DNA from: a bacterium
GTDB lineage: Bacteria; SZUA-79; Acidulodesulfobacterales; Acidulodesulfobacteraceae
Length of the DNA stretch: 64,000 nt
Direction of reading: 5' to 3'
Assembly (NCBI GenBank): GCA_021845685.1
Contig: JAJZVN010000002.1
Location: 62,001 to 126,000 of the forward strand
Shown: piece by piece, positions 87 to 22,731 of the stretch
Numbering within the stretch: position 1 is the first letter of the stretch
Layout: each line of letters starts with the position of its first letter
Made by a program: the position numbers and the translations under genes
The notes under the pieces: generated by a model
Databases searched by the model: none
What the model saw: the letters and a program-made list of their open reading frames with translations, nothing else
What the model was told of the DNA's origin: nothing

Positions 87-770
87 ATGAAGATAATTGA
101 TTTTTATGACAAGGCTGCAATTCAATTAGAATCAGGAATTATTTCAGGGCTATTTGAAGAACAATTATTTAACAAATTAAACCGTTATACTTATTTTATA
201 TTTTTTTCAAAAAAATATATTTTTAATAATATTAATTTTATTAAAAAAAATAATAGAAATAATATTAAAAATTATAAGCATATTAACAATATTAACAATA
301 TTAACAATAGTAACAATAGTAACAACATATTTTATCAAATATTTCAAACTAAACAAAAAAATATTTTTTTTAATTACCGTAATAAATTTAAAAAAATATA
401 TTTGCCGTTATTTTTATTTTCACTTTCAATTTTGTCAATTGCTTCTCCAGCTTATTCTTATATAAATTTAAATCAAGGCTCGCTCGGTATAGGTGCTTCA
501 GGAATATTAAACGAAGCTACAACATGGATTTGCTACAGGTTAGCTCCTGCAACATTAACATTAGGATTAATTAAAGGGTTTTATGATATAAAGCAGCATA
601 AACCTGATGCAGCAAGAAAAGCTTTTATAACTGCAGCTGCGGGAACCGGCGTTATGCTTGCTCCGACAATTACAGGCGCAGTTTTAGGCATTGTTCAAAA
701 TGCCGGAGGCGCAGCTAACAGCGTAACTATAGGTTCGGGAAACGGTTCAACGACTGTAGGACAGCCTTAG
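87..770 (+). CDS. VirB2/TrbC-like pilin precursor (probable)
   Basis: Probable major pilin subunit of the type IV secretion system encoded by the following genes. The C-terminal ~100 residues fit a TrbC/VirB2 pilin: a hydrophobic signal-like segment at about residues 105-125 ending in Ala-rich SPAYS, then two hydrophobic segments separated by a short basic loop (KQHKPDAARK), and a Gly/Ser-rich tail. The first ~100 residues are odd: basic and Asn-rich, with NNI/NNS repeats from a tandem 9-base repeat near 283-325. There is no later ATG before the signal segment, and a strong Shine-Dalgarno (GGGAGGG, 74-80) precedes the ATG, so this start is supported. The family is called from architecture and synteny; sequence identity to known pilins is not obvious. 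Confidence 0.6.
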   Translation: MKIIDFYDKAAIQLESGIISGLFEEQLFNKLNRYTYFIFFSKKYIFNNINFIKKNNRNNIKNYKHINNINNINNSNNSNNIFYQIFQTKQKNIFFNYRNKFKKIYLPLFLFSLSILSIASPAYSYINLNQGSLGIGASGILNEATTWICYRLAPATLTLGLIKGFYDIKQHKPDAARKAFITAAAGTGVMLAPTITGAVLGIVQNAGGAANSVTIGSGNGSTTVGQP

Positions 771-1042: not shown

Positions 1043-1357
1043 ATGGGTTTTACTAATTTTAAAATACACAGAGGGATTCATGAAAAAGTAACAAAATTAG
1101 GTTTAGAACTTTATGATTGGGGTTTATACATTTTTCTAACGATGTTCATAATATTATTATTAAAAAAAGAAATTCTGATAACTATTTTATTAGATCTTTT
1201 AATTTTTATTTTTCTAAAAAAGTATAAAAAAGGGAAACCTGATTTTTATACAACTACACTAATTAATTACTTTTTTATAACAAAAAAACTTTTTGTTTTA
1301 GAGCCGCACCGTGATATTGCAGAGGCAAAAAATATTATTGAAATCTATTATGAATAA
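1043..1357 (+). CDS. VirB3/TrbD-like inner-membrane protein
   Basis: A 104-residue protein with a short N-terminal basic/amphipathic stretch, a hydrophobic hairpin at about residues 28-58, and a polar C-terminus. Size, topology and its place directly before the VirB4 ATPase gene match VirB3/TrbD, a small partner of VirB4 needed for pilus assembly in the inner membrane. No Shine-Dalgarno is evident, which is common in this cluster. A 270-bp AT-rich gap separates it from the pilin gene, and 66 bp separate it from virB4. The call rests mainly on context. Confidence 0.55.
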   Translation: MGFTNFKIHRGIHEKVTKLGLELYDWGLYIFLTMFIILLLKKEILITILLDLLIFIFLKKYKKGKPDFYTTTLINYFFITKKLFVLEPHRDIAEAKNIIEIYYE

Positions 1358-1423: not shown

Positions 1424-3997
1424 ATGTTTGCAAATACTGTTTTAAAAAAACAAAATCAATATGAATCTTTAAATAATTATATAAATCTATTAAGTATATT
1501 TAAAGATATTATTATAGGTATAGACGGGTCGCTGACTATAGGATTCGCGGTACGGGGATTTGATTATTTTATGGCAAACGACGAAATAATTAACGATACC
1601 GCTTATATTAACGATGTTTTGTTAAATTTATTAAATGAAGACATTTCGCTTCAATGGGTATACAAAATATCAGGTTCCGATAAAGATTTTATATCAAATT
1701 ATACAAAAAGTTCAAATCCTCCTGAAAAATATTTATATATAAAAGAAAAAAAGATTAAATCTTTAAATGCCGATTTAATTAAAAAAATAGATATATTTCT
1801 TTTTTGCACAATGTCAGGCTTTAGACCATGGAAAATTAATAATATAAATTTATTTTCAAAATTATCTCAATTTGTCTCTAATCTGCTAACAATTAAACCA
1901 AAGGACGCACTTAATAAAAATTCAAGAGAGAAAGCAAAAAAAGAGTTTGACTATATGCTGAAAAAAATTGAAAACATTGAAAATAATTTAAGCTTTTTTT
2001 CTTCAAGGTTAAACATAAAAATAAGACGAATGTCAAATCAGGAATTGGTTGATTATTTTTACAATGAACTTAATCCGGAAAGATCGCAATATGTAAAAGC
2101 TCCATTTTATAATAACATACTAGCCGAAGCTGCATATAGAAGTTCTTTAATATTTTCGCCTGCAGAAATAAATAAAGATTATTTTTATATTGACGGATAT
2201 TATTTTAAATTTATTAATATGCATCGCCTTCCTTCGCAGACAGATTCATTCGGCATCACAAAAATATTAAATTTAGAATCTAACGATATTAAAAACTTTT
2301 TTCCGTTTGATATTCAAGTTGCCTTTAATATACCTGAACAGGAAAAAATAATTAATAAAATTCAATCGGAAAGAAATATTAAAGCAAGTTTGACAGATGC
2401 CGTCAACGGCGGTTATGTTGACCATAAAGGGACCAATATTACATCTCAGATGGATGAATTTTTGGCGGAAATATCTAAGTTTCAAAAAAAAGCCGTAAAT
2501 ATGTCGTTCTGCGTCAGATTAAAATCTAGAAATTTAAAAGAGTTGGATTATATGTCTTTGAAAATTTTACAATCATTTAAAGATTTTAATTTTATGGAAG
2601 GAATAACTGACAATATGGAACATCATAATTTATTTTTATCATTTTTTCCGGGGCAGTCTTTTTTCAATAGAAGATTTAAAACTTTGCTGTCTCCGGCGGC
2701 ATCCTCATTTTTTCCGCTGCATGAGGGATTTAGAGGAACGAATAATTGCTCTATACCTCTAAAAAATAACAGATTTGAGCCTGTCAGTTTAGATCTTTAC
2801 AATAATCAACTGCCTTCAAAGCATGGCGTGATTTTTGGAAAGACGAGAAGCGGAAAAGGATTCATGCTGAACGGATTTTTATCTAATTTCTTTTTATCAG
2901 GGGATAATTATCATATTATCGGAGTTGATATAGGAGGCACATACAGAAAATTTTGCAGAATATTTGACGGAGACTATTTTGAAATAGATATGGACGGAAC
3001 TTATTGTTTAAATCCTTTCCCGCCTAAAAAAAATATTATTAAACGAATAAATAATGAAGAAGTATTTGATGCGGATATTATGGTTTTTTTAATCGGCATT
3101 ATAGCTCTTATGGTAGAGCCTGAAAACAGCCTTTCCCCGAATGATAAGACAATTATAGCAAGAGCTATTCAGGCTTCGTACGATGCAATAAAAGACGAAA
3201 ACGATATGCCTATTATTTCGGATATCAACAATGTTTTATTTAATTATAATGAAGCAAGAGATGCTGAAGATAAAAGAAGAGCTATGGAAATGGGAAAAAA
3301 TCTTTTTCAATGGACGGACATTGGTTCACCATACAGTATATTGCTTAATAGAAAAGGCGGTTTAAATATTGAAAATAAAATAGTAATTTTTGATTTACAA
3401 AAATTAAAAGGGCATGAAGATTTACAAAAAATTGTGTTTGCCATAATAAAAAATTTATCTTTTAAAAAGATGTATGACAAACATGCCAGAGTATTTTTCT
3501 TTTATGATGAGTGCTGGGAATTTATGAATGATTCTAAAATAGCGGATTTAATAATACATTTATATAAAACTTCGGCAAAATGGGGGTCTTTAGTATGGAG
3601 TATAACGCAGGAGCCTTCTGATCTTTTAAAAACCGGAAATGCGGGAAAAAGCATAATTGAAAATTCTACCGTTAAAATTTTTTGCCAGTTAGATGCAAAT
3701 GTTTCGCCCGATGATTTAAAAATATGCGGTTTAAGCAAAAAAGAAATTGACATAGTAAAAAATTTAAAAGTTATCAAAGGACATTATGCAGAATATTTTT
3801 TAAAGTTTGGAAAAGATTCTACGGTTATAATGAACAAACCGGATCCCTTTGAATACTGGCTGTATTGCAAATCATCGGAAGATGAAGAATTAGAAAATAA
3901 AATTGCAGATAAATATCCTGATAAAACCTTAAGAGAAAGACTTGAAATTTTAGCATCTAAATATCCAAACGGACCATACGGAGTAAAAAAGATATAA
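1424..3997 (+). CDS. VirB4/TrbE/TraC-family T4SS ATPase
   Basis: Large (857 residues) cytoplasmic/membrane-associated ATPase that energises type IV secretion and pilus assembly. The C-terminal half has a clear P-loop (GKTRSGKG, about residues 474-481) and a Walker B region (FFFYDECWEF, about 690-700), followed by a VirB4-typical stretch containing SITQEPSDLL. The N-terminal half (about 1-400) is the family's less conserved domain. Length is normal for the family (about 800-900). This is the most securely identified component of the cluster and anchors the VirB-type calls around it. A weak hairpin follows the stop. Confidence 0.92.
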   Translation: MFANTVLKKQNQYESLNNYINLLSIFKDIIIGIDGSLTIGFAVRGFDYFMANDEIINDTAYINDVLLNLLNEDISLQWVYKISGSDKDFISNYTKSSNPPEKYLYIKEKKIKSLNADLIKKIDIFLFCTMSGFRPWKINNINLFSKLSQFVSNLLTIKPKDALNKNSREKAKKEFDYMLKKIENIENNLSFFSSRLNIKIRRMSNQELVDYFYNELNPERSQYVKAPFYNNILAEAAYRSSLIFSPAEINKDYFYIDGYYFKFINMHRLPSQTDSFGITKILNLESNDIKNFFPFDIQVAFNIPEQEKIINKIQSERNIKASLTDAVNGGYVDHKGTNITSQMDEFLAEISKFQKKAVNMSFCVRLKSRNLKELDYMSLKILQSFKDFNFMEGITDNMEHHNLFLSFFPGQSFFNRRFKTLLSPAASSFFPLHEGFRGTNNCSIPLKNNRFEPVSLDLYNNQLPSKHGVIFGKTRSGKGFMLNGFLSNFFLSGDNYHIIGVDIGGTYRKFCRIFDGDYFEIDMDGTYCLNPFPPKKNIIKRINNEEVFDADIMVFLIGIIALMVEPENSLSPNDKTIIARAIQASYDAIKDENDMPIISDINNVLFNYNEARDAEDKRRAMEMGKNLFQWTDIGSPYSILLNRKGGLNIENKIVIFDLQKLKGHEDLQKIVFAIIKNLSFKKMYDKHARVFFFYDECWEFMNDSKIADLIIHLYKTSAKWGSLVWSITQEPSDLLKTGNAGKSIIENSTVKIFCQLDANVSPDDLKICGLSKKEIDIVKNLKVIKGHYAEYFLKFGKDSTVIMNKPDPFEYWLYCKSSEDEELENKIADKYPDKTLRERLEILASKYPNGPYGVKKI

Positions 3998-4232: not shown

Positions 4233-5519
4233 ATGTATAATAATCATTTTGATAAAGATTTCAAAAAACTTAATACGGTTAATAAACTTAATGCATTTAA
4301 TGCAATAGATAAATCAGATAATTTTTCTTGTAATCATCGTAATGATAATCTTAAAATTTATAAAAATTTTAAATTAAATTTTAAGAAAATTTTATTAACC
4401 GCATCAATAGTTTCTTTTTCATTATATACTTATGTTCAGACAGCTTTTGCTTTAGGACTGCCTTTGCCTGATATAAATCTAATTACAAGCCAGATTCAAT
4501 CCGTTGCATCAGCAGCTTCGGGAGTAATGGCTACCGTCGGAAATGCTGCATCGACCGCTCAATCCGCAGGTTTGCCTGTTGCTACTCCGGGAATCGGGAT
4601 AGGGCAGGCTCTTCAATCATTTGAATCTCTCACGGCTGATGAATCAAAAATGCAGGAAATGGAACAAAATATAATTATAAATTACGACAAACTAACTCAT
4701 ATAACAAATTCGGTTCAAAATGCAATAAGCAATTTAAATAGTTTAAACAGCCAAATTAAAACTGCATTTAGTGAAATACCTCAAGGATTAACCCAAAATG
4801 ATGTTTCGGTAAATACTTCGCCTGCAAATTCAATAGCAGGTAATATTAATTCAGAGAATAATGCATTTAATTCATTGCAAAATACGTCTTACGGCAGCAA
4901 TATACAAAATATAGTTTCAGGAAAATCTCCGAATAAAGAAGAGTTATCCGCAAATGCGCAAAGTTTTGCAAATTCAATGATATTAAATTCAAACGGTATT
5001 ACAGCGCCAGCGTCCGTTAATTCTATAAATTATAATTGTCAGCCTGATTTAACAAACAACAACGGCGGCGGCAGTAACGGTATTTCGGCCGCTTCAAGCG
5101 GTATTGAAAATATCAACGGTAATAATGCCGGCAACACTGTTCCCAATACTCAAAATTGTATGGATTACGTAAATGGATTTGAAAGCGACGTTGCAGCGTC
5201 TAATCTTTATAACGCAGGTATTTCATCGTCAAGAGCTCATAAAGCCGAATTAGAAGGAGACGAGTTTGAAAACGAAATTGCAGGAGGAAAGTTAGGGAGC
5301 AGCAGTAATTATTATACTTACCAAAGTTCAATATTAACTTTAATGGCGGAAGAAAACGCGGCAGATTTAAAAAACATGGGCTATATTGAAAGCCAGCTTA
5401 AACAGCTTGAATTGTCTAAATCTGCTGCCGAAATTAAAAAAGAGCATATAGGCGCTTCACTTCTTGAGCAAAATAGCCGGAACCCAGATTTAAATTTTTA
5501 TAATCAAACTACATTATAA
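4233..5519 (+). CDS. Exported VirB5/TrbJ-like T4SS protein (probable)
   Basis: A 428-residue secreted or periplasmic protein. An N-terminal polar extension (about 1-48) precedes a signal-like hydrophobic segment (about 50-73, ending QTAFA). The mature part is Ala/Ser/Asn/Gln-rich and mostly helical, with a predicted coiled-coil stretch at about 140-180 and another in the last 60 residues. A pair of cysteines flanks an Asn/Gly-rich segment and could form a disulfide. Its position between virB4- and virB6-like genes and its helical secreted character fit TrbJ/VirB5, the minor pilin/adhesin. A good Shine-Dalgarno (GGAGG at about 4220) precedes the ATG. Identity with known VirB5 proteins cannot be judged by eye. 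Confidence 0.55.
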   Translation: MYNNHFDKDFKKLNTVNKLNAFNAIDKSDNFSCNHRNDNLKIYKNFKLNFKKILLTASIVSFSLYTYVQTAFALGLPLPDINLITSQIQSVASAASGVMATVGNAASTAQSAGLPVATPGIGIGQALQSFESLTADESKMQEMEQNIIINYDKLTHITNSVQNAISNLNSLNSQIKTAFSEIPQGLTQNDVSVNTSPANSIAGNINSENNAFNSLQNTSYGSNIQNIVSGKSPNKEELSANAQSFANSMILNSNGITAPASVNSINYNCQPDLTNNNGGGSNGISAASSGIENINGNNAGNTVPNTQNCMDYVNGFESDVAASNLYNAGISSSRAHKAELEGDEFENEIAGGKLGSSSNYYTYQSSILTLMAEENAADLKNMGYIESQLKQLELSKSAAEIKKEHIGASLLEQNSRNPDLNFYNQTTL

Positions 5520-5697: not shown

Positions 5698-6792
5698 ATG
5701 ATAAATAAATATATTTTAATTTTTATACTTATTACAGGTTTTGTTTTTATAACCGAATTTTCTATAACGCCTTATGCAATGGCTTTAACTAAGGGGGGAA
5801 ATAATTCAAATTTAAATTTAAATTCATCGTCGCTGTCTATTTCAAAATTAAATAATGGGGAAGATTTGACTATTCTGTCTATAGATTCTATTCCTTCAGC
5901 GCTTAATAATAATTCAAGTTTGGTTCAATTAACGACTTATTTGTTTTATTTTTTATTTGCATCGGGTATTATATTTTCTTTATGGGAATCTTATAAATTA
6001 GAATTAACGGGTCAATCTTCAAATTACTACGGCTTACTTATCAGAATTATTTTAATAGCGGCGGGATTCTTATCATGGAAATCTGCCGGAATGTCAAATT
6101 TTGCTCAGGATATTTTAACGCTTGCAGATAAAATTCAGCTATACATTATTAAACTAAATATATCAGGCATAGGGCAAAATGTTTCGCAGATTAATTCCTC
6201 TATCGTAAACAGCCTCCATTCTGTTTCATTGCCGACAATATCGTCAAACGGTACCAGTTCTGTTCAAAAAGGCTGGAATCTTAATCCCGTATCATGGTTT
6301 GCGGGAGCGTTACATGCATTAACAGGCGCAGTTTTAATGGGCATATTCTGGTTTTTGTTTAATCTTTTATATATCGGTATTCAGCTTTTTATGGCTTTAA
6401 TTCAGGTTGTTATTCTAGGACTATTGTTTTCCATCTTTCCTATAATTATAGGATTTGAAACAATACCATATACAAAAGGCGTTTTTGGAAAATGGCTAAA
6501 GCTTTTTACCGAAATATCATTCTGGGGAGTGATAACAGGCCTTGAACAATTAATTTTTTTCACAATGCTCGGAAAAATAATGTCTGCAAATATGCAGTCA
6601 ACGGGAACGGGATTAGGTCAGATATTAGGTCTATTCACTTTTGCGGAAGATATTGTAATTTTTATAGTAATGATAACAATTTCTGCATCTGTACCTTTTC
6701 TTGTCGGAAAAATATTTGACGGAATAGGCGATAAATATCATACAAGCATAAAAAAAACAATAACTTCGGTGGGTAAAGCAATTGTATTTTAA
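5698..6792 (+). CDS. VirB6/TrbL-like polytopic membrane protein
   Basis: A 364-residue protein with an N-terminal signal-like helix, a transmembrane segment near 75-97, another near 112-128, and a cluster of at least four hydrophobic segments between about 200 and 340. A Ser/Asn-rich periplasmic loop lies between them. This is the topology of VirB6/TrbL, the polytopic inner-membrane channel subunit, and its place before a VirB8-like gene agrees. The 3' end overlaps the start of the next gene by 11 bases, suggesting translational coupling. No clear Shine-Dalgarno precedes the ATG. Confidence 0.72.
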   Translation: MINKYILIFILITGFVFITEFSITPYAMALTKGGNNSNLNLNSSSLSISKLNNGEDLTILSIDSIPSALNNNSSLVQLTTYLFYFLFASGIIFSLWESYKLELTGQSSNYYGLLIRIILIAAGFLSWKSAGMSNFAQDILTLADKIQLYIIKLNISGIGQNVSQINSSIVNSLHSVSLPTISSNGTSSVQKGWNLNPVSWFAGALHALTGAVLMGIFWFLFNLLYIGIQLFMALIQVVILGLLFSIFPIIIGFETIPYTKGVFGKWLKLFTEISFWGVITGLEQLIFFTMLGKIMSANMQSTGTGLGQILGLFTFAEDIVIFIVMITISASVPFLVGKIFDGIGDKYHTSIKKTITSVGKAIVF

Positions 6793-7426
6793 TAATAGTA
6801 AAAATAATAAAAGATTTTTTTATGAAATTTGGGGCGATTTAAATGCCCAAAATACAACTTTAAAAATTGTAATAGTATTAATGTCTGTTATTACTTCTAT
6901 TGCTCTTTTTACGGCTTATTTTACTTATAGAATCAATAGAGTCCCGATTGTTATCAGGGTTTCTAAAACAGGCGGCGCAAAAGTTTTAAGAGATTTGCCT
7001 TTTAATAATAGGGTGGGTATGGGTGAAATTGTTTATTTCTCAAAAACTTTTATAAGAGAATTTACGGGATTTAATTCTATTACTATTAAAACCCAGCTTT
7101 CAAGAGCATTGAATAAAATGGGTAAATCTTACGGTGAAAGTACGCTTAAAATGATAATAGGAGAAAAATTTATACAAAAAATGGAAAAAGCTAATATTTC
7201 TTCCGAAATTAAATATAAAAAAATTAAACTTATAAGACAAACCGTCAATCACGATGAATTAAAACTGTATATAATAAGAACCGTGATTTCTAATGCAGAT
7301 TTAAGCGTTAAAAGCAGTGCCGCTTATGAAGATAAATTAATACTTAAAAGAATAAAAAGGAGTATTCAGTATCCTTTCGGTTTAGAAGTCGTATATTTTA
7401 ATACGTTAAAATTAGGCGGAGCGTAA
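6782..7426 (+). CDS. VirB8/TraE/TrbF-like bitopic T4SS protein
   Basis: A 214-residue protein with a short cytoplasmic N-terminus (about 1-25), one transmembrane helix (about 26-47), then a soluble periplasmic domain starting with RVPIVIRVSKTGG, which resembles the P-x-V-V-x-V-D-x-x-G region after the membrane helix in VirB8/TrbF/TraE proteins. VirB8 is an inner-membrane scaffold that joins the core complex to VirB10/VirB6. The start is TTG and lies inside the 3' end of the virB6-like gene, an 11-base overlap. The family is supported by topology, motif and position. Confidence 0.72.
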   Translation: MYFNNSKNNKRFFYEIWGDLNAQNTTLKIVIVLMSVITSIALFTAYFTYRINRVPIVIRVSKTGGAKVLRDLPFNNRVGMGEIVYFSKTFIREFTGFNSITIKTQLSRALNKMGKSYGESTLKMIIGEKFIQKMEKANISSEIKYKKIKLIRQTVNHDELKLYIIRTVISNADLSVKSSAAYEDKLILKRIKRSIQYPFGLEVVYFNTLKLGGA

Positions 7427-7433
7427 TGATAAA

Positions 7434-8771
7434 ATGGATGACAAATTAAATAATCCGCATATTATATCTGAAGAACAATTAAATGCGGAAAATTCAAATA
7501 ATGATAATGATAATGATAATGATTATAGTTCTAATAATTATAATGGCGATAAGAATAAATATAGCTGCGCAGAAAATAAAAAACAATTGGAAGAAGATAA
7601 TCAAAATGCAAATACTGTTATAGATACAAATACAGATACATATAATTCTGTGCCGAATTTAAAAAATAAAAATAATAAATATACTTTTTTTAGATCATTT
7701 AAAGGAATTATAATTTTAACAGGGATTATTATAGGAATTTTTATTATGTTTAAATTTTTATATTTAAATAGTTTAAATAATAATGGTCAAAAATACAATA
7801 ACATGACCGGAAATGGAATCAAACCGATAAATAAATATAAAAATAAGATTATTAATTACAAAAAAAGATTTCGCCCCAATATTTTTAATTATACTTATAG
7901 AGATAAAAATAATAATTTAAAAACTGCAAATCAAATAAAATTTAGTAAAAAATTTTATAGAGAAATACAGCTTTTAAAAAAATTAAAAAATTATAAGAAT
8001 ACAATCGATAATAGCAATACTGATAAAAATAACTTAAAAAACACTAAAAAAAATTTATTGCCTATAAATAAAAAAATAGTTGTTTTTATTAAACAAAGCT
8101 ATGCGGTGTCAATTCTAAAAAATGAAAAAGAAGCGAATAAAAGAGCAAATAAAAACAATAAAAAATTGGGTAATTTTAATTATTATAAAAAAGCCGCCGA
8201 TAAAAAAATTTCTACTGCTGTAATAGCAATCGGTACCGTAGTTAACGCATATATAAAATATAAAATTTTTTCATATAACACTGAAGTTCCGGTAATAGCA
8301 ATTTTATCAAACACATATTATTACAAAAGGAAACCGTTTTTAAAAAAAGGAGATAAATTTTTCGGTATGGTAAGCGTAAAACATTCATTAGACAGATTAA
8401 ATATACATTTTAACAGAATAATCAAAACTAACGGTTTGTCTTTAGGTATTAACGCTTTAGCAATGATGCCGAACGGTTCAGGCGGAGTAAAAGGAAATAT
8501 CCATCGCCATTACAAAACCAATATTTTGACATCTTTAGCCTCGGGAGTCGTCGGAGCGGCAGCGCTGTTTGCAGGAGGCGGGTCGGCTGCCAATGCATCA
8601 AATCCTTATACTTTTCAAAATCAAATAAGGCAGAATGTTGCGCAGAACGAATTAGGACAGGCGCAAAACGGTTTAAATTCAATTGCATCGTCAACGCAGC
8701 AAGCAACTATTACATTACCTGAAGGAACGCCGATAAAAATTATTTTTTTAAGATCCGTGAATATCAAGTAA
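7434..8771 (+). CDS. VirB10/TrbI-like core-complex protein
   Basis: A 445-residue protein with an Asn/Asp-rich cytoplasmic N-terminus (about 1-80), one transmembrane helix (about 88-108), a Lys/Asn-rich linker (about 115-250) and a C-terminal beta-rich domain. The domain runs from a stretch ending TEVPVIAIL through a hydrophobic AASGVVGAAALFAGGG-like segment, probably the outer-membrane-crossing hairpin, to a closing LPEGTPIKIIFL. These are hallmarks of VirB10/TrbI, which spans both membranes and senses ATP use by the secretion ATPases. It starts 8 bases after the virB8-like stop. The linker is unusually Lys/Asn-rich. Confidence 0.8.
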   Translation: MDDKLNNPHIISEEQLNAENSNNDNDNDNDYSSNNYNGDKNKYSCAENKKQLEEDNQNANTVIDTNTDTYNSVPNLKNKNNKYTFFRSFKGIIILTGIIIGIFIMFKFLYLNSLNNNGQKYNNMTGNGIKPINKYKNKIINYKKRFRPNIFNYTYRDKNNNLKTANQIKFSKKFYREIQLLKKLKNYKNTIDNSNTDKNNLKNTKKNLLPINKKIVVFIKQSYAVSILKNEKEANKRANKNNKKLGNFNYYKKAADKKISTAVIAIGTVVNAYIKYKIFSYNTEVPVIAILSNTYYYKRKPFLKKGDKFFGMVSVKHSLDRLNIHFNRIIKTNGLSLGINALAMMPNGSGGVKGNIHRHYKTNILTSLASGVVGAAALFAGGGSAANASNPYTFQNQIRQNVAQNELGQAQNGLNSIASSTQQATITLPEGTPIKIIFLRSVNIK

Positions 8772-8787
8772 ATATAAGGATATTAAT

Positions 8788-9675
8788 ATGGAAATACTTA
8801 CATTAAGCAGGTCAAATTCTGGAATCAACGAAGTAATAAAAAAAATAATTTCTATAATAAAAAATCTTGATACATATTTTTTTGAAAGATATGAACTTAT
8901 AGAAGCTATTTTAATTTCAATTATTTCAAAACAGCATATGATATTAATAGGTGAGCCTGGACTTGCTAAAACCGCAATATTAAAAGCGTTGACAAAACAT
9001 ATAAACGGAATGAAATTATTTGATTATCAAATGACTCCGTACACGGAAATAAATGATTTATTATCTAATAATCCCATAAATAAAGGCAAAGGCATAGATA
9101 AATGCGAAATTATATTGATGGACGAATTTTTTAAAGGCAAACCTTCAACGCTAAATTCATTGTTATCCGTAATGAATGAAAGAATATTGTATAATCCTGA
9201 GCCAGTAAACATTCCGCTTATTAGTTTATTTGCAACTTCAAACGAAAAGCCGGATAAGTCTGTTTCTTCTAATTTATTGCCTTTATACGATAGATTTTTA
9301 TTGAGAAAAGAGGTTTTACCGATAACAGATAAAGATAATTTTAAAAACCTTTTAAAACTAAATGAAGAATATTCATTTAATAATATAAATTTAGAATTAG
9401 ACGATTTAAAAAAAATAATCATGATTTCCAAAGAAATAAATATTGCGGAAGATATTTACAATTTAATTTTCAGGATAAGAGAAGAATTAAAAAACAGGCA
9501 AGTAATAGTTTCCGACCGAAGATGGCGTGATACCGTTAAAATTATAAAAGCAAAAGCATTGCTTGAAAATAGGAATTTTGTCTCCGTAAACGATATTAAA
9601 TCAATGGAATCGTCTATGTGGACTTATTATTCAGATATTAGAACGGTTAGAAACATAATTAATAAATTTACATGA
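8788..9675 (+). CDS. MoxR/RavA-type AAA+ ATPase
   Basis: A 295-residue AAA+ ATPase of the MoxR clade (AAA_3/AAA_5). Visible motifs are Walker A GEPGLAKT (about residues 54-61), Walker B ILMDEFFKG (about 108-115), a sensor-1-like FATSNE (about 150-155), and a sensor-2/lid segment with VSDRRWRDTVK near 240-250. MoxR ATPases act as chaperone-like machines that load metals or activate partner complexes, often with a VWA-domain partner, which is absent here. The gene sits between the virB10-like and virD4-like genes, 17 bases from the former, so it is probably co-transcribed. This is not a VirB11-type ATPase, although VirB11 often occupies a similar position. Its role in secretion is inferred from position only. 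Confidence 0.88.
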   Translation: MEILTLSRSNSGINEVIKKIISIIKNLDTYFFERYELIEAILISIISKQHMILIGEPGLAKTAILKALTKHINGMKLFDYQMTPYTEINDLLSNNPINKGKGIDKCEIILMDEFFKGKPSTLNSLLSVMNERILYNPEPVNIPLISLFATSNEKPDKSVSSNLLPLYDRFLLRKEVLPITDKDNFKNLLKLNEEYSFNNINLELDDLKKIIMISKEINIAEDIYNLIFRIREELKNRQVIVSDRRWRDTVKIIKAKALLENRNFVSVNDIKSMESSMWTYYSDIRTVRNIINKFT

Positions 9676-9831: not shown

Positions 9832-11613
9832 ATGGATAATAAGAAAATTTTTTTATTAAAATTAACAGTTTCATTGTTTATCTTTGTTACGGAAATTATT
9901 TATCTTTTTATTTTTTCAAATTTTTTCACTAATAAAAATTTAAATTATTATTTCTATTATTTTAACGACGTGAAATTAATTTTAATATTTATGCCTTTTA
10001 TAGTATGGTTTTTTTCTGCTTATTCGCTATCAAACATAATTTATAATAAATATATTTATTTAAAACCTGCAAAAAATAAAAAAATAAAAAAAGTTATTAA
10101 AAACGATGTTCTTTTATGGCCGGTTAAAGAAAACGAATTAAAATTAGTAATAGGCGAAATGCATAATAAAGACGGCAGCAGAAAAGAAAAACCTGATTGG
10201 CTTATTTTAAACGAAGACGGATTATATACGGGACTTATAATAATAGGTTCTACAGGTTCAGGCAAGACAAGTTCATGCGCCTATCCTTTTTTAGATCAGC
10301 TTTTAAACTGTAATAAAAATGACAAAAACAAAAAAATAGGCGGGTTAATTTTAGATGTTAAAGGAGATTTCTGGAAAACAGCGGCAGATATAATAAAAAA
10401 CTACGGGAGGCTTGACGATATTATAATTATAGAGCCGGGTTCAGGTTATTTTTATAATCCAGTCCATTATCCAAATTTAGATGTTTCTATAATTGCCGAA
10501 AGATTATATTCTGTTTTAGAAAATTTAAATTCTAACGACGGAAGACAGGACAGTTATTGGAAAGACAAGTCTATTAATCTATTGGCAAATTCAATCGGAT
10601 TGCTAAGGGTAACTTTTAAATATGTAGCGCTTGATGCAGTTTATGAAATTATATCCGATGAAGAAAAACTGTTGAATATAATTAATTATTCTAAAAATTT
10701 AATTGATTTAAAAAAAATAAATGATGATGATAAAAACAATTTAACTATGTATATAGATTATTTTTCAGGCAGCGACTATAAAAGTCTTGACGAAAGAACA
10801 AAAGGAATAATAAAAAGCGAATCATTAAGGGTTTGTTCCGATTTTATAAAACCTTTATATAAAAAAACATTTTGCGCGTCTGAAAAAGATTTAAATTTTC
10901 CCGGTTTTCAAGAAGTAATAAATAAAGGAAAAATAATTATTTTAAGAATGCCTGAATCTCAATACGGTTTAACAGGACGTGCAATAGGGATTATGCTTAA
11001 ACTTGATTATTTCAGGACAGTTTTAAACAGAGTTTACAATGCAGTCATAAATAATAAAATTAATACGGCAAGACCAGTTCTTTTTCTTTGCGACGAATAT
11101 CAGAATTATGTTACTTCGGGAGATATAGAATCGGATGCAGAATTTTTTGCAAGATGCAGGCAGTCAAAAGCAGTTAATATTATGCTTACGCAGAGTTATA
11201 GTTCTTTAAAATTAAAATTAGGTTCCGAAGAAAAACTTAATTCTCTTATCGGAAATATCAGATCTAATATATGGCTTTCTTTAAGCGACGATTATTCAAG
11301 AGAAAAAGCGTCAAAAATATGCGATAAAGAATTTAAAGCAAAAATTACGGAAAATATTACCGAACAGGATGATAGCGCTAAATTTAACTCATATATAGGC
11401 GGCTTATTATCCGATGACAACACATTATCTCAAGGTACAAGCAAAACAATGGAAAAAATGCCGGCATTTGATACCGATGATTTTGCAAATCTTAAACTTA
11501 ATCAGGCAATATATAGAATTTATTCCGATAAAGGTATTAAAGGACCAGGTATAGTCTATCTTCATCCTTATTATTTATCTAAATACAGGAGTTATTTTGA
11601 TATAGATAATTAA
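9832..11613 (+). CDS. VirD4/TraG-type coupling protein
   Basis: A 593-residue type IV coupling protein that would recruit substrates to the secretion channel. Two N-terminal transmembrane helices (about 8-33 and 45-65) are followed by a cytoplasmic NTPase domain with Walker A GSTGSGKT (about 139-146), the LDVKGDFW motif typical of TraG/VirD4 (about 180), and Walker B LFLCDEYQNY (about 416-425). A stretch containing RCRQSKAVNIMLTQSYSSL matches the family. Its presence implies a substrate-exporting system (DNA or protein), not just a pilus. A 156-bp AT-rich gap precedes the ATG. No relaxase gene lies nearby in the window. Confidence 0.93.
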   Translation: MDNKKIFLLKLTVSLFIFVTEIIYLFIFSNFFTNKNLNYYFYYFNDVKLILIFMPFIVWFFSAYSLSNIIYNKYIYLKPAKNKKIKKVIKNDVLLWPVKENELKLVIGEMHNKDGSRKEKPDWLILNEDGLYTGLIIIGSTGSGKTSSCAYPFLDQLLNCNKNDKNKKIGGLILDVKGDFWKTAADIIKNYGRLDDIIIIEPGSGYFYNPVHYPNLDVSIIAERLYSVLENLNSNDGRQDSYWKDKSINLLANSIGLLRVTFKYVALDAVYEIISDEEKLLNIINYSKNLIDLKKINDDDKNNLTMYIDYFSGSDYKSLDERTKGIIKSESLRVCSDFIKPLYKKTFCASEKDLNFPGFQEVINKGKIIILRMPESQYGLTGRAIGIMLKLDYFRTVLNRVYNAVINNKINTARPVLFLCDEYQNYVTSGDIESDAEFFARCRQSKAVNIMLTQSYSSLKLKLGSEEKLNSLIGNIRSNIWLSLSDDYSREKASKICDKEFKAKITENITEQDDSAKFNSYIGGLLSDDNTLSQGTSKTMEKMPAFDTDDFANLKLNQAIYRIYSDKGIKGPGIVYLHPYYLSKYRSYFDIDN

Positions 11614-11737: not shown

Positions 11738-12052
11738 ATGGATAATTCAAAAAAATACGGCAATAATGACGAACTGGATATTCTGGAAATAGCTTTTCTT
11801 TGTGTTTCAGGTTTATTTGCTTTATTTTACTTTTCAAACAGTGAGTTTAAATATTATATTGATTGTTTTTATACATTTGCAAGCTATGCTTTTAAGTATT
11901 TTACGGTTGTATCAATTTTATATTTAATTAATTTATATTTATTTTTCGCTGGCATTTACGGTTTATACGTAATAATTTTTGAAATAAAAGTTACTGGAGC
12001 CAAACTTAAAATGCATAATAAATTAGAAAATTTAAAAAAAGAGGATAATTAA
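11738..12052 (+). CDS. Small membrane protein in T4SS cluster
   Basis: A 104-residue protein with two or three hydrophobic segments (about 16-35, 42-65 and 66-84) and a charged C-terminus rich in Lys/Glu. No family is recognised. It is separated by a single base from the next gene, and a GAGG sequence inside its 3' end could serve that gene, so the two are probably co-translated. It may be an accessory inner-membrane part of the secretion system, but this is inferred from position. Confidence 0.6.
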   Translation: MDNSKKYGNNDELDILEIAFLCVSGLFALFYFSNSEFKYYIDCFYTFASYAFKYFTVVSILYLINLYLFFAGIYGLYVIIFEIKVTGAKLKMHNKLENLKKEDN

Positions 12053-12053
12053 A

Positions 12054-13049
12054 TTGGAAAATAAAATATTTAAAGATAATTATTATAAATTTTTATCATC
12101 GCTGCTATTGCTATATTTTTATTTATTTTTATTGGTTTCATTAGTATTTTGCATATATAGTAAAACAGCAGATGCCCAGCCGTATTCAAATTTAGCTGAA
12201 TACAGTTTTAAAAATAGATTATATATCCATAAGCTTCCTATAAAATCAAATATAATTTATAAACTTAATACCGCATTGGGTTATGTAAGTATTATAACGC
12301 TTCCGTGTATTCCGTTAAATGTGGCGATAGGCAGCGCATCGGATTTTTCTGAACAGATTGTAGGAAGACAAATATTTATTAAACCAATAACTTATAATAA
12401 TAAAATTAATACAAACCTTGAAATTTTAACTAAATACGGACTTATTAATATTCTTTTAAAAATTACTAAGCCTGAATATGTAACTTATAATTTAAATTTA
12501 ACGCAAAGAATCAATAATGTTTTTATTTTAAATTATATAAAAGCTAAAATTAAAAAAGAAAAAGAAATATTAAATCAGAAATATGATAAAAAATTCAACC
12601 TGCTTAAAAAAGAACGGCTAACAATAAAAAAACAAAAAAAAGAAATTATGAACCTTGTTTTAGCGGTCAACAGAATTAAAATTAACAAAAAAATCAGAAA
12701 AAAAGGATTAGTATTAACAATTATTTCTTTAAGCCGCATCGGAAAATTTTTTTATTTGCAATATCAAATTACAAACACGACAAATAGCAGTTTTTTTATT
12801 AGAAATATTTATTTATATTTAGAAACGGGAGAAGATTTTTTTAACGGATATAATCCTGCAGGTATAAAGGAAATAAACATAATCAACAGTACGCCTCATA
12901 ATAAACCGTATATGCCTTACAAAATCATAAGAAATGTTATTGTATTTAAAAGAAATAAATTAAAACAAGGAAATAATATAAAATTTTCCGTTCACATATT
13001 AATTCATGGAAAATTTATTAAATTAAATATAGGCAATATATTAAAATAA
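12054..13049 (+). CDS. Divergent VirB9/TrbG/TraK-like outer-membrane core protein
   Basis: A 331-residue exported protein with a hydrophobic signal/anchor segment at about residues 14-37. Residues ~75-140 carry a VirB9-like pattern: a strand, then VAIGSASDFSEQ, then GRQIFIKP, then TNLEILTKYG, then alternating hydrophobics. This parallels the VirB9/TrbG N-terminal domain, where a G-D/S-x-W stretch is followed by xxLFIKPxxxxxxTNLxVxT. A Lys/Glu-rich coiled coil (about 165-205) is inserted before a C-terminal beta-rich domain. VirB9 would form the outer-membrane core ring with VirB10. It starts at TTG, with GAGG ten bases upstream. The gene is displaced from the usual virB8-virB9-virB10 order, so the call is moderate. 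Confidence 0.55.
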   Translation: MENKIFKDNYYKFLSSLLLLYFYLFLLVSLVFCIYSKTADAQPYSNLAEYSFKNRLYIHKLPIKSNIIYKLNTALGYVSIITLPCIPLNVAIGSASDFSEQIVGRQIFIKPITYNNKINTNLEILTKYGLINILLKITKPEYVTYNLNLTQRINNVFILNYIKAKIKKEKEILNQKYDKKFNLLKKERLTIKKQKKEIMNLVLAVNRIKINKKIRKKGLVLTIISLSRIGKFFYLQYQITNTTNSSFFIRNIYLYLETGEDFFNGYNPAGIKEINIINSTPHNKPYMPYKIIRNVIVFKRNKLKQGNNIKFSVHILIHGKFIKLNIGNILK

Positions 13050-13414: not shown

Positions 13415-14176
13415 ATGAATAAAAAATCTCCTATTTCAATAATTTCAAGTTTTGTTTTGTTTTTATTTTTAATCGGTTTTAATTTATTTTTTATTAAATC
13501 CGCAAATGCGCTTAATAATTCAATTGCTATGCTTAATGCGCACAAATTAAAATACGTTAGCGCTGTTTATGCTTCAAATCCTATTATTTATGCTATATAT
13601 GTAAAATATTCAGGTGAACCATTAACAAAAAAGGTTATTTCTACATATATTAAAATTGTTAATCCGTCAAAATACAAGCACGACCGTTTCAACGCATTTC
13701 TATGGCAAAAACTTTATTATAAAGATAAAATAAGATTTAAGAAATTACTGGATTATATTTCTCAAGTTCATTGTTTTAAAGAATATATTAAAGCAGATAT
13801 CGGCAATTATAACTTTAAAAAAGACGGTTTTTATTTAAGATATTACAGGTCAAAAAAAATTATTCAAAACGGTATGAAGACTCATAGAAATATTGATTTT
13901 ATAAAGTCAATTCACGGAAATATTTATTATTTATTTAAAAATTTAACCGTTGATAATATTAATGCAGGAAATTTCAATTTTATTAAAGTAAATTATAACA
14001 GGGCTAAACAATTTGTAGATTCAAGAACCGGAGATTTTGGACATATAGGCCGGAGTATTTTTTTAGAGTATTGCTATAAGCCCATAAAAGCTAAAAATAA
14101 TATTTTAAAAGTTAAAATAACAAAAGTTTTTGTATATAATAATAAAAATAAAAGTAAATTAATAGGAAGCTTTTAA
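13415..14176 (+). CDS. Exported protein of unknown function next to T4SS genes
   Basis: A 253-residue protein with a clear N-terminal signal peptide (hydrophobic about 9-30, ending SANA). The mature part is Lys/Tyr/Asn-rich with no transmembrane segment. Two cysteines (in VHCFKEY at about residue 111 and EYCYKP at about 220) could form a disulfide. I recognise no family. A GGGTTTT stretch precedes the ATG, a weak ribosome binding site. It follows the secretion cluster on the same strand but behind a palindrome, so it may be its own transcription unit. It could be a secreted accessory protein; no function can be assigned. Confidence 0.65.
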   Translation: MNKKSPISIISSFVLFLFLIGFNLFFIKSANALNNSIAMLNAHKLKYVSAVYASNPIIYAIYVKYSGEPLTKKVISTYIKIVNPSKYKHDRFNAFLWQKLYYKDKIRFKKLLDYISQVHCFKEYIKADIGNYNFKKDGFYLRYYRSKKIIQNGMKTHRNIDFIKSIHGNIYYLFKNLTVDNINAGNFNFIKVNYNRAKQFVDSRTGDFGHIGRSIFLEYCYKPIKAKNNILKVKITKVFVYNNKNKSKLIGSF

Positions 14177-15452: not shown

Positions 15453-15809
15453 ATGAAAGTAGAAAAAGTAATATATTATTCTTCCGAAAACGGGGTCAGC
15501 CCCGTATTAAAATATATTGAGTCGTTAGATGAAAACACAAAAGAATTAATTTATAATTCAATTAATACATTTGCCAAAGAATTTCCTGAGGTTAAGACCG
15601 TTAAAATAAAGCATATGAGAGATAAATTCTGGAAAATTAAATTGACTGACAGGTTTAAAAGAAATCACAGAATCGTTTATGTCGTAATTAATAATACTGC
15701 TATAATTCTTCACGCATTTCAAAAACGCAACGCTAAACATCCGCCTGTCACTAAAATGGGCGTCCCTGGCAGATTAAACGATATTATAGGAAGATTATCA
15801 TTATTATAA
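15453..15809 (+). CDS. RelE/HigB-superfamily (Gp49-like) toxin-fold protein, no antitoxin seen
   Basis: A 118-residue protein matching the phage-derived Gp49-like/HigB group of the RelE superfamily. It has an N-terminal VEKVIYYSSENGVSPVLKYIESL, a central KIKHMRDKFWKIKL (the L-x-x-G-L/F-W-E-x-R region), then RNHRIVYVVINNTAIILHAFQKR. In the family these are ribosome-dependent or related mRNA endonuclease toxins, normally followed by an HTH antitoxin. None is encoded in the 150 bases downstream or upstream. It is coupled to rluB, starting 4 bases after the rluB stop. It may be a domesticated or solitary member, and activity is unproven. Confidence 0.75.
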   Translation: MKVEKVIYYSSENGVSPVLKYIESLDENTKELIYNSINTFAKEFPEVKTVKIKHMRDKFWKIKLTDRFKRNHRIVYVVINNTAIILHAFQKRNAKHPPVTKMGVPGRLNDIIGRLSLL

Positions 15810-21605: not shown

Positions 21606-22731
21606 ATGAAAAGTAAGAAAATCTCTAAAAAAAGTTATTTTATTGCAAGTTTAATAAGCATTGCTTTAATTTTTCTGTTTATATTTTTATATAAAAATTT
21701 TACATCTTATAATATAAAATTAAAACCAACCGCAAATATTAATATTGCAAATCGCAGCAAACATTTTTTAAAACAAACTAAATATCAAAAATTCAGGATA
21801 TTTTGGAAAGATATGTATTCACGTCTCAAAAAAGAAAAACTGCCTTATAGACTAAGGTTAATCGCCGTCGACAAAATTAATAAGATAAAAACTTACAGTA
21901 TTACTTTAACTTCTTATGACGGTCTTCAGCTTAAAGGCTATTTTGCTATACCTTACGGAGGGGCAAAAAATAAAAAGTATCCCGGCGTTTTATTGCTACA
22001 TGGATACGGTTCTTTCGGCACTCCCGGATGGGCACATTTCTTTGCAAGACGAGGATATGCCGCTCTTTCTATAGATTTAAGGGGTCATGGAAGAAGCAGG
22101 ACGGTTTACAATCCCGGATTTCCGGGATTAATGACGGCAGGCATTACCCATGTTAAAACTTTTTCAATGGTTAAAATAGTTATGGATTCATTAGCATCGC
22201 TTAAATTTTTAGAAAGATTTAAACAAATAAATAATAAATTAATTTTTGTGACAGGCGGAAGCATGGGGGGGAGGGTTATCCCTTATAGACGCAAGCATTG
22301 ACCGTCATGTTGTTGCCGCTGCCGCAGATGTTCCGTTTTTAAGCGATATTCCGGTGCAGATGCCTCTTGCAAAAATGGGTCCATATATGGAAGTTAAAGC
22401 GTTTTTAAAAAAACATCCGAAAGACAGGGCTAAGGTTATGAGGTCGCTATATTATGTTGATACAAAACATTTTGCAGGCTCGATTAAATCGCCGGTTCTT
22501 ATCGGAATAGGGCTTAAAGATGAAGACTGTCCGCCTAAAGGTACTTTAATCGTATATAAACTGATTAAGTCTAAAAAACAGCTATTTATCGCAAAAAACA
22601 GCGGGCATGTAGTCCTGCCTGGTTGGAATTTAGAAGTATTTAAGTTTTTTGCTCCATATCTGCCAAAAACAATAAAGTCGAGCAATACTAATAAAAAAAT
22701 AAATAAAAATAATGAAAGGAAGATTTTATGA
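21606..22731 (+). pseudogene. Exported alpha/beta hydrolase (acetyl-xylan esterase/dienelactone hydrolase-like), frameshifted
   Basis: Two reading frames make one alpha/beta hydrolase. Frame one (21606-22301) has an N-terminal membrane/signal segment (about 10-30), the oxyanion strand LLLHGYGSFG, and the nucleophile elbow GGSMGG. Frame two (to 22731) continues with the Asp strand (KDEDCPP) and the catalytic-His region (NSGHVVLPG). The switch is at a run of seven Gs (22265-22271) inside the elbow. With six Gs the protein reads on as GGSMGGGLSLIDASIDR and is about 374 residues with a complete Ser-Asp-His set. This could be a true mutation, a slippery or phase-variable tract, or an assembly error. 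The stop overlaps the hemL start by 4 bases (ATGA). Confidence 0.85.

Follow-up and report, generated by a model that had tools for sequence, protein, structure and literature searches.

Background

VirB4, VirB11 and VirD4 have been supposed to be the full set of motors of type IV secretion systems (T4SSs), and in the canonical virB order virB11 lies directly after virB10. VirB11 hexamers dock under VirB4 rings, and how the two ATPases cooperate is unknown; the F-plasmid system has no VirB11 and still works (PMC12857230). How F-type systems manage without this ATPase is unexplained.

MoxR-type AAA+ ATPases usually act with a VWA partner (PMC9976466), and in NorQD the hairpin of the helix-2 insert binds the VWA finger (PMC13036017). 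The nearest precedent for a genomic link between a MoxR-type ATPase and a pilus machine is the MoxR/GvpN-vWA pair of the thaumarchaeal type IV pili (PMC4858521), although these are archaeal type IV pili and not T4SSs, and a vWA gene is present there. We found no earlier report in the open-access literature that pairs MoxR with VirB4, VirB11 or conjugation, and two T4SS reviews of 2025 do not mention MoxR.

A MoxR ATPase inside a T4SS locus

The window, which is the whole stretch of 64,000 nucleotides analysed here, belongs to a 3.04-Mb genome (96% complete) of Ca. Acidulidesulfobacter, from the little-known acidophilic phylum Ca. Acidulodesulfobacteriota. Its T4SS locus is chromosomal, and represents the type called A below, where the related types B and C are also described. 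The features are as follows, in window coordinates.

87..770, + strand: VirB2-like small membrane protein, putative pilin (position and conservation in cluster A and B loci; no Pfam match)
1043..1357, + strand: VirB3/TraL-like protein (PF07178 TraL, E=2.5e-4, just under the cut-off)
1424..3997, + strand: VirB4 ATPase, TraC-like (P-loop_TraG, 1.5e-31; TIGR02746 below cut-off; VirB4 tree)
4233..5519, + strand: VirB5-like secreted protein (position and conservation in cluster A loci)
5698..6792, + strand: VirB6-like polytopic membrane protein (position, hydrophobicity, and conservation including clusters B and C)
6782..7426, + strand: VirB8-like protein (conserved in A, B and C)
7434..8771, + strand: VirB10/TrbI (PF03743, 6.9e-15; PDB VirB10 match, 0.004)
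8788..9675, + strand: MoxR/RavA-type AAA+ ATPase, 295 aa (Pfam, NCBIfam, PDB sequence and fold matches, motif alignment)
8950..8973, + strand: MoxR Walker A, GEPGLAKT, residues 55-62 (alignment)
9061..9108, + strand: MoxR truncated helix-2-insert region, residues 92-107 (alignment, model)
9109..9129, + strand: MoxR Walker B, IILMDEF, with D112 and E113 (alignment)
9832..11613, + strand: VirD4/TraG-type coupling ATPase (PF02534, 3e-11; PF12696, 1.2e-5)
11738..12052, + strand: small membrane protein between virD4 and virB9, conserved in cluster A (conservation)
12054..13049, + strand: VirB9-like protein (phmmer homology to a cluster C protein)
13415..14176, + strand: DUF4852-like secreted protein, downstream neighbour (PF16144, 5.7e-4, below cut-off; conserved near cluster A)

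The earlier note had described a complete VirB/Trb-like set. VirB2, VirB3, VirB4, VirB5, VirB6, VirB8, VirB9, VirB10 and VirD4 are indeed present, VirB2, VirB5 and VirB6 being assigned mainly by position and conservation, while VirB1 and VirB7, like VirB11, were not found in the cluster, so the word "complete" goes a little too far. The T4SS core of VirB4, VirB9, VirB10 and VirD4 is found all together. Two of the assignments have further matches: the family HMM of the VirB8-like protein also picks a TrbF/VirB8-like protein of a VirB11-type locus (7e-5), and the cluster C homologue of the VirB9-like protein matches VirB9 (TIGR02781, 3.6e-6) and CagX (8.5e-7). Pfam and NCBIfam gave no match to the F-specific TraU/W/N/F/H or TrbC among cluster A proteins, and no relaxase was recognised by eye among the ORFs flanking the locus.

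The MoxR gene that had been noticed between the VirB10- and VirD4-like genes proved to be a real ORF, starting 16 bp after virB10 and ending about 157 bp before virD4. Its product exceeds the cut-offs of Pfam AAA_5, bpMoxR (2.9e-27) and AAA_lid_8, and the T2SSE/VirB11 models of the same Pfam and NCBIfam scans do not match it. Escherichia coli RavA (PDB 3nbx, 4upb, 6q7l) is the best match both by sequence (8e-29) and by fold, since the RavA entries top a PDB search with the AF2 model (pLDDT 88.7; TM 0.86). The two proteins share the AAA+ core, the lid and the sensor and arginine-finger residues; throughout the MoxR alignment, the Walker A, Walker B, sensor 1, arginine finger and sensor 2 residues are all intact. 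The protein is nevertheless not a RavA equivalog, as the NCBIfam RavA model matches it (2.5e-34) with 119 bits against a cut-off of 681 bits, and it has 295 residues against about 500 in RavA with its C-terminal domains. The RavA C-terminal extension is absent from the MoxRs of all three locus types. The moxR gene is under purifying selection (dN/dS 0.07-0.21), which is weaker in virB10 (0.23-0.35).

Two other features of the window were noted by eye. A RelE/HigB-like toxin-type ORF (15453-15809) lies downstream of a pseudouridine synthase gene, with no obvious adjoining antitoxin, and an alpha/beta-hydrolase gene is seemingly split in two ORFs (21606-22301 and 22354-22731).

Linkage of MoxR to T4SS genes across the phylum

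A check of the neighbourhoods of close homologues, which the earlier note had proposed, revealed repeated co-occurrence with T4SS genes, and the opposite outcome, homologues mostly outside secretion clusters, was not observed. MoxR occurs in 34 of the 34 inspected loci, from 24 species, and is always co-directional with the T4SS genes. Neighbourhoods of the window type were found again in 23 species-level genomes, and MoxR is also part of two sister systems. In type A (23 loci) moxR always lies between virB10 and virD4, and in type B (five loci) between virB10 and virB9; in both it directly follows virB10, the gap being at most 60 bp for 24 of 28 loci, with an overlap of the two genes in some. 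In type C (six loci), moxR closes the operon after virB6/virB1 instead of following virB10, and a tyrosine recombinase comes next in the three listed loci that reach far enough. All five MoxR genes detectable with the window query in the window's genome are in T4SS loci of types A, B or C. MoxR was found in 26 of 30 genomes of the family; three of the other four also lack this VirB4, and in the fourth (G024) the contig ends after virB6, before the moxR position. The association of MoxR with these T4SSs is not accidental and goes far beyond chance.

Several of these loci have features of their own. The complete type B locus that was read in detail continues with a type-IV-pilus module. In L043:1710-19368 (G003:C2), and also in L044 and L045, the genes after the type B T4SS are PilN/O/P-like genes, a secretin, a pilin and a PilB-like ATPase, and this T4SS with a type-IV-pilus module at its side recalls IncI plasmids. 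The type C order is virB8-9-10, a fused virB3-virB4, virB5, virB6, virB1 and moxR (L042, L046-L049, L166), and the system, which has ParA, tyrosine recombinases and, upstream, a short VirD4 (L166:1562-2704), resembles an integrative element. In the closest relative (G002), virD4 is split in two ORFs (L053:6690-8470), and the type A system there may be decaying or misassembled.

VirB11 is absent from the inspected MoxR loci

The absence of VirB11 noticed at the start holds on both the local and the genomic scale. No VirB11 lies in the 14 kb left of virB2, and only five proteins of the genome exceed the PF00437 cut-off, all PilB/GspE/PilT-like in size (frames of 389-614 aa); the best score of a VirB11 model genome-wide is 58 bits. 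Relatives do have six real VirB11-like genes (TIGR02788, 162-166 bits; one each in G001, G013 and G016, three in G005). These sit in other loci, where the VirB4s belong to a different branch and MoxR is found in none of the six. VirB11 and MoxR are mutually exclusive, locus by locus, among the inspected loci, which bears out the view that this T4SS subtype is unusual and has a MoxR dedicated to it. It differs from the VirB-type systems (MPF_T) in that its MoxR loci have no VirB11. With the F-type systems (MPF_F), it shares a TraL-like VirB3 and the lack of VirB11, and its VirB4 scores best with the TraC model, far below the cut-off; but cluster A has MoxR and none of the F-specific genes, while the genuine F-type loci of the same genomes (TraC of 811-852 aa, TraG-like protein of about 1000 aa) have MoxR in none of five cases and also lack VirB11.

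No VWA partner gene in the window's genome and a shortened helix-2 insert in types A and B

As a rule MoxR proteins work by way of a VWA adaptor, and here that rule is broken twice, as the adaptor gene is absent from the window's genome and two of the system types, A and B, no longer have the gripping hairpin. Three Pfam models (VWA_2, VWA_CoxE and VWA) gave no match in the window's genome, with positive controls; a ViaA-type partner such as that of RavA is thereby missing too, and several MoxR-bearing relatives likewise have no VWA_2 match. This absence rests on the Pfam searches, because a regular expression for MIDAS motifs missed known VWA genes and was dropped.

Types A and B lack about 11 residues of the helix-2 insert that RavA and the outside homologues have. 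In most A and B loci the spacing from the Walker A lysine to the Walker B aspartate is 50-51, whereas it is 61 in type C and mostly 60-62 among outside homologues. Types A and B have another sequence in place of the conserved LPEAHI segment; in seven type A loci the spacer is longer (55-79) and its sequence unrelated. The beta-hairpin of the insert (clade 7) is thus missing from A, including the window, and from B, and is kept in C. In the type A model the region is coil without a hairpin, whereas the type C model keeps a short bridge and a helix, with low confidence.

Trees that point to a single recruitment of MoxR

The VirB4s of these systems fit the model of F-type TraC best; the window protein matches it (TIGR02746, 4.9e-59) at 200 bits against a cut-off of 567. 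In the VirB4 tree, the proteins of types A, B and C form one clade (100/99) on the TraC side, yet outside the F-type clade; the outgroup branches are long, and the exact sister of this clade is unsure. The MoxRs also form one clade (97/98). Since both trees have the topology ((A,B),C), their congruence points to a single recruitment of MoxR.

Proposed role of the MoxR ring

Taken together, the order of the genes, their strict linkage, the selection on moxR and the lack of an adaptor mark MoxR as an active component of the T4SS machine or as a helper dedicated to it. Our tentative proposal, slightly favoured over its nearest rival, is that these bacteria have a T4SS lineage of their own in which a MoxR/RavA-type AAA+ ring serves as the third cytoplasmic ATPase, in a VirB11-like role. 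We prefer it because VirB11 docks beneath the VirB4 ring and because moxR in types A and B directly follows virB10. Like VirB11, TrbB and DotB, MoxR is a small cytoplasmic ATPase next to virB10 (in A and B), with one copy per system and an expected hexameric ring, but it belongs to another ATPase family. By analogy with other MoxRs, the protein would form a hexamer, and the site under the VirB4 ring could take an AAA+ ring. The ring would then sit at the cytoplasmic base of the machine and work like VirB11 without being one, or else remodel the machine during its assembly. The lack of a VWA adaptor suggests that MoxR contacts the machine directly, most likely at the VirB4 ring or at the cytoplasmic tails of VirB10 or VirD4, and its use of ATP would drive assembly or the switch from pilus to channel, as VirB11 does elsewhere. 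A bolder version, which we hold a little more doubtful, is that the VWA-free ring is a structural third motor docked at the base of VirB4, which would make this the first MoxR-powered T4SS.

Several points weigh against a VirB11-like role. Outside these systems, MoxR proteins act as chaperone-like remodellers; in cluster C the insert is retained and moxR stands at the operon end; and there may be no empty VirB11 slot to fill, given the TraC-like VirB4s. The last point also bears on the suggestion of the earlier note that MoxR may replace VirB11. That suggestion finds only partial support: with VirB4s that are TraC-like and an F-plasmid system that lacks VirB11, the ancestor may never have had this ATPase, and a third ATPase added to a VirB11-less system explains the data at least as well.

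Less probable than our proposal by a small margin, and still a serious contender, is that MoxR is a dedicated assembly chaperone, in the manner of NorQ/CbbQ, that transiently remodels one subunit (VirB10, VirD4, VirB6 or VirB4) and is absent from the finished machine. Such a role would follow the general behaviour of MoxR proteins (PMC9976466, PMC13036017) and suits the position of moxR between virB10 and virD4 in cluster A; the fact that the F-plasmid system does not need VirB11 (PMC12857230) is also in its favour. NorQ and CbbQ are, like the MoxR here, single-domain MoxR AAA+ ATPases of about 270-300 aa. They act via a VWA protein, however, which NorQ grips with the helix-2 insert, and the remodelling described in the two MoxR studies likewise goes via a VWA adaptor; the window's genome has none, and types A and B no longer have the hairpin that binds VWA.

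It is improbable that MoxR instead handles substrates, unfolding a secreted protein or a DNA-protein substrate or delivering it to VirD4. In cluster A, moxR does lie immediately upstream of virD4, sometimes overlapping it, but the next gene is virB9 in B and an integrase or other mobile-element gene in C, and a ring that has lost its pore-side insert, as in types A and B, would speak against threading. That moxR is a passenger or regulatory gene merely sitting in the operon is nearly refuted: although the bacteria are uncultured, the presence of MoxR in all 34 loci, across three system types of differing gene order, with congruent trees and strong purifying selection, speaks against it.

The pairing may show that T4SS machines can be powered or assembled in a way not described before. 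A TraC-like VirB4 and an unrelated AAA+ ring in one phylum also amount to a natural experiment in which the contribution of the third ATPase can be studied.

MoxR homologues outside the family

A MoxR profile searched against 386 genomes scored 400-457 bits for full-length family members and 242 bits or less elsewhere, the outside matches being ORFs mostly longer than 380 aa. The nearest outside MoxRs have 29-36% identity, are longer and are not linked to T4SSs. Within this sampling the pairing seems confined to the phylum, the majority of other families having one genome each among the 386.

Candidate second cases were rejected. Six neighbourhoods of plasmid MoxRs from Listeria, Brevibacillus, Alicyclobacillus, cyanobacteria and Hymenobacter lack a set of T4SS genes next to MoxR; in the Listeria plasmid the one gene of this kind is VirD4-like and lies about 7.5 kb off. 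The plasmid MoxRs of Brevibacillus, Alicyclobacillus and Pseudanabaena adjoin a VWA gene, and a module DUF6744 - MoxR - VWA recurs in the three (L074, L076, L078). Among the Dadabacteria, Binatia, Methanosarcina and other RavA-like matches (L103-L158), the one locus with T4SS genes by the HMMs was L105, an instance of type C from the family studied here and not an outside case. Viral contigs gave 13 distant MoxR matches, none with T4SS genes, and the type C query matched none. Myxococcus plasmid relatives of the VirB4 have no annotated MoxR. The ATPase of a Thermus plasmid T4SS was dismissed as a MoxR since the protein is SpoIIIAA/T2SSE-like. That plasmid, from Thermus sp. NEB1569 (L211:18436-19368), combines a TraC-like T4SS, the SpoIIIAA/T2SSE-like ATPase and a lytic transglycosylase, and is another unusual candidate for a third ATPase.
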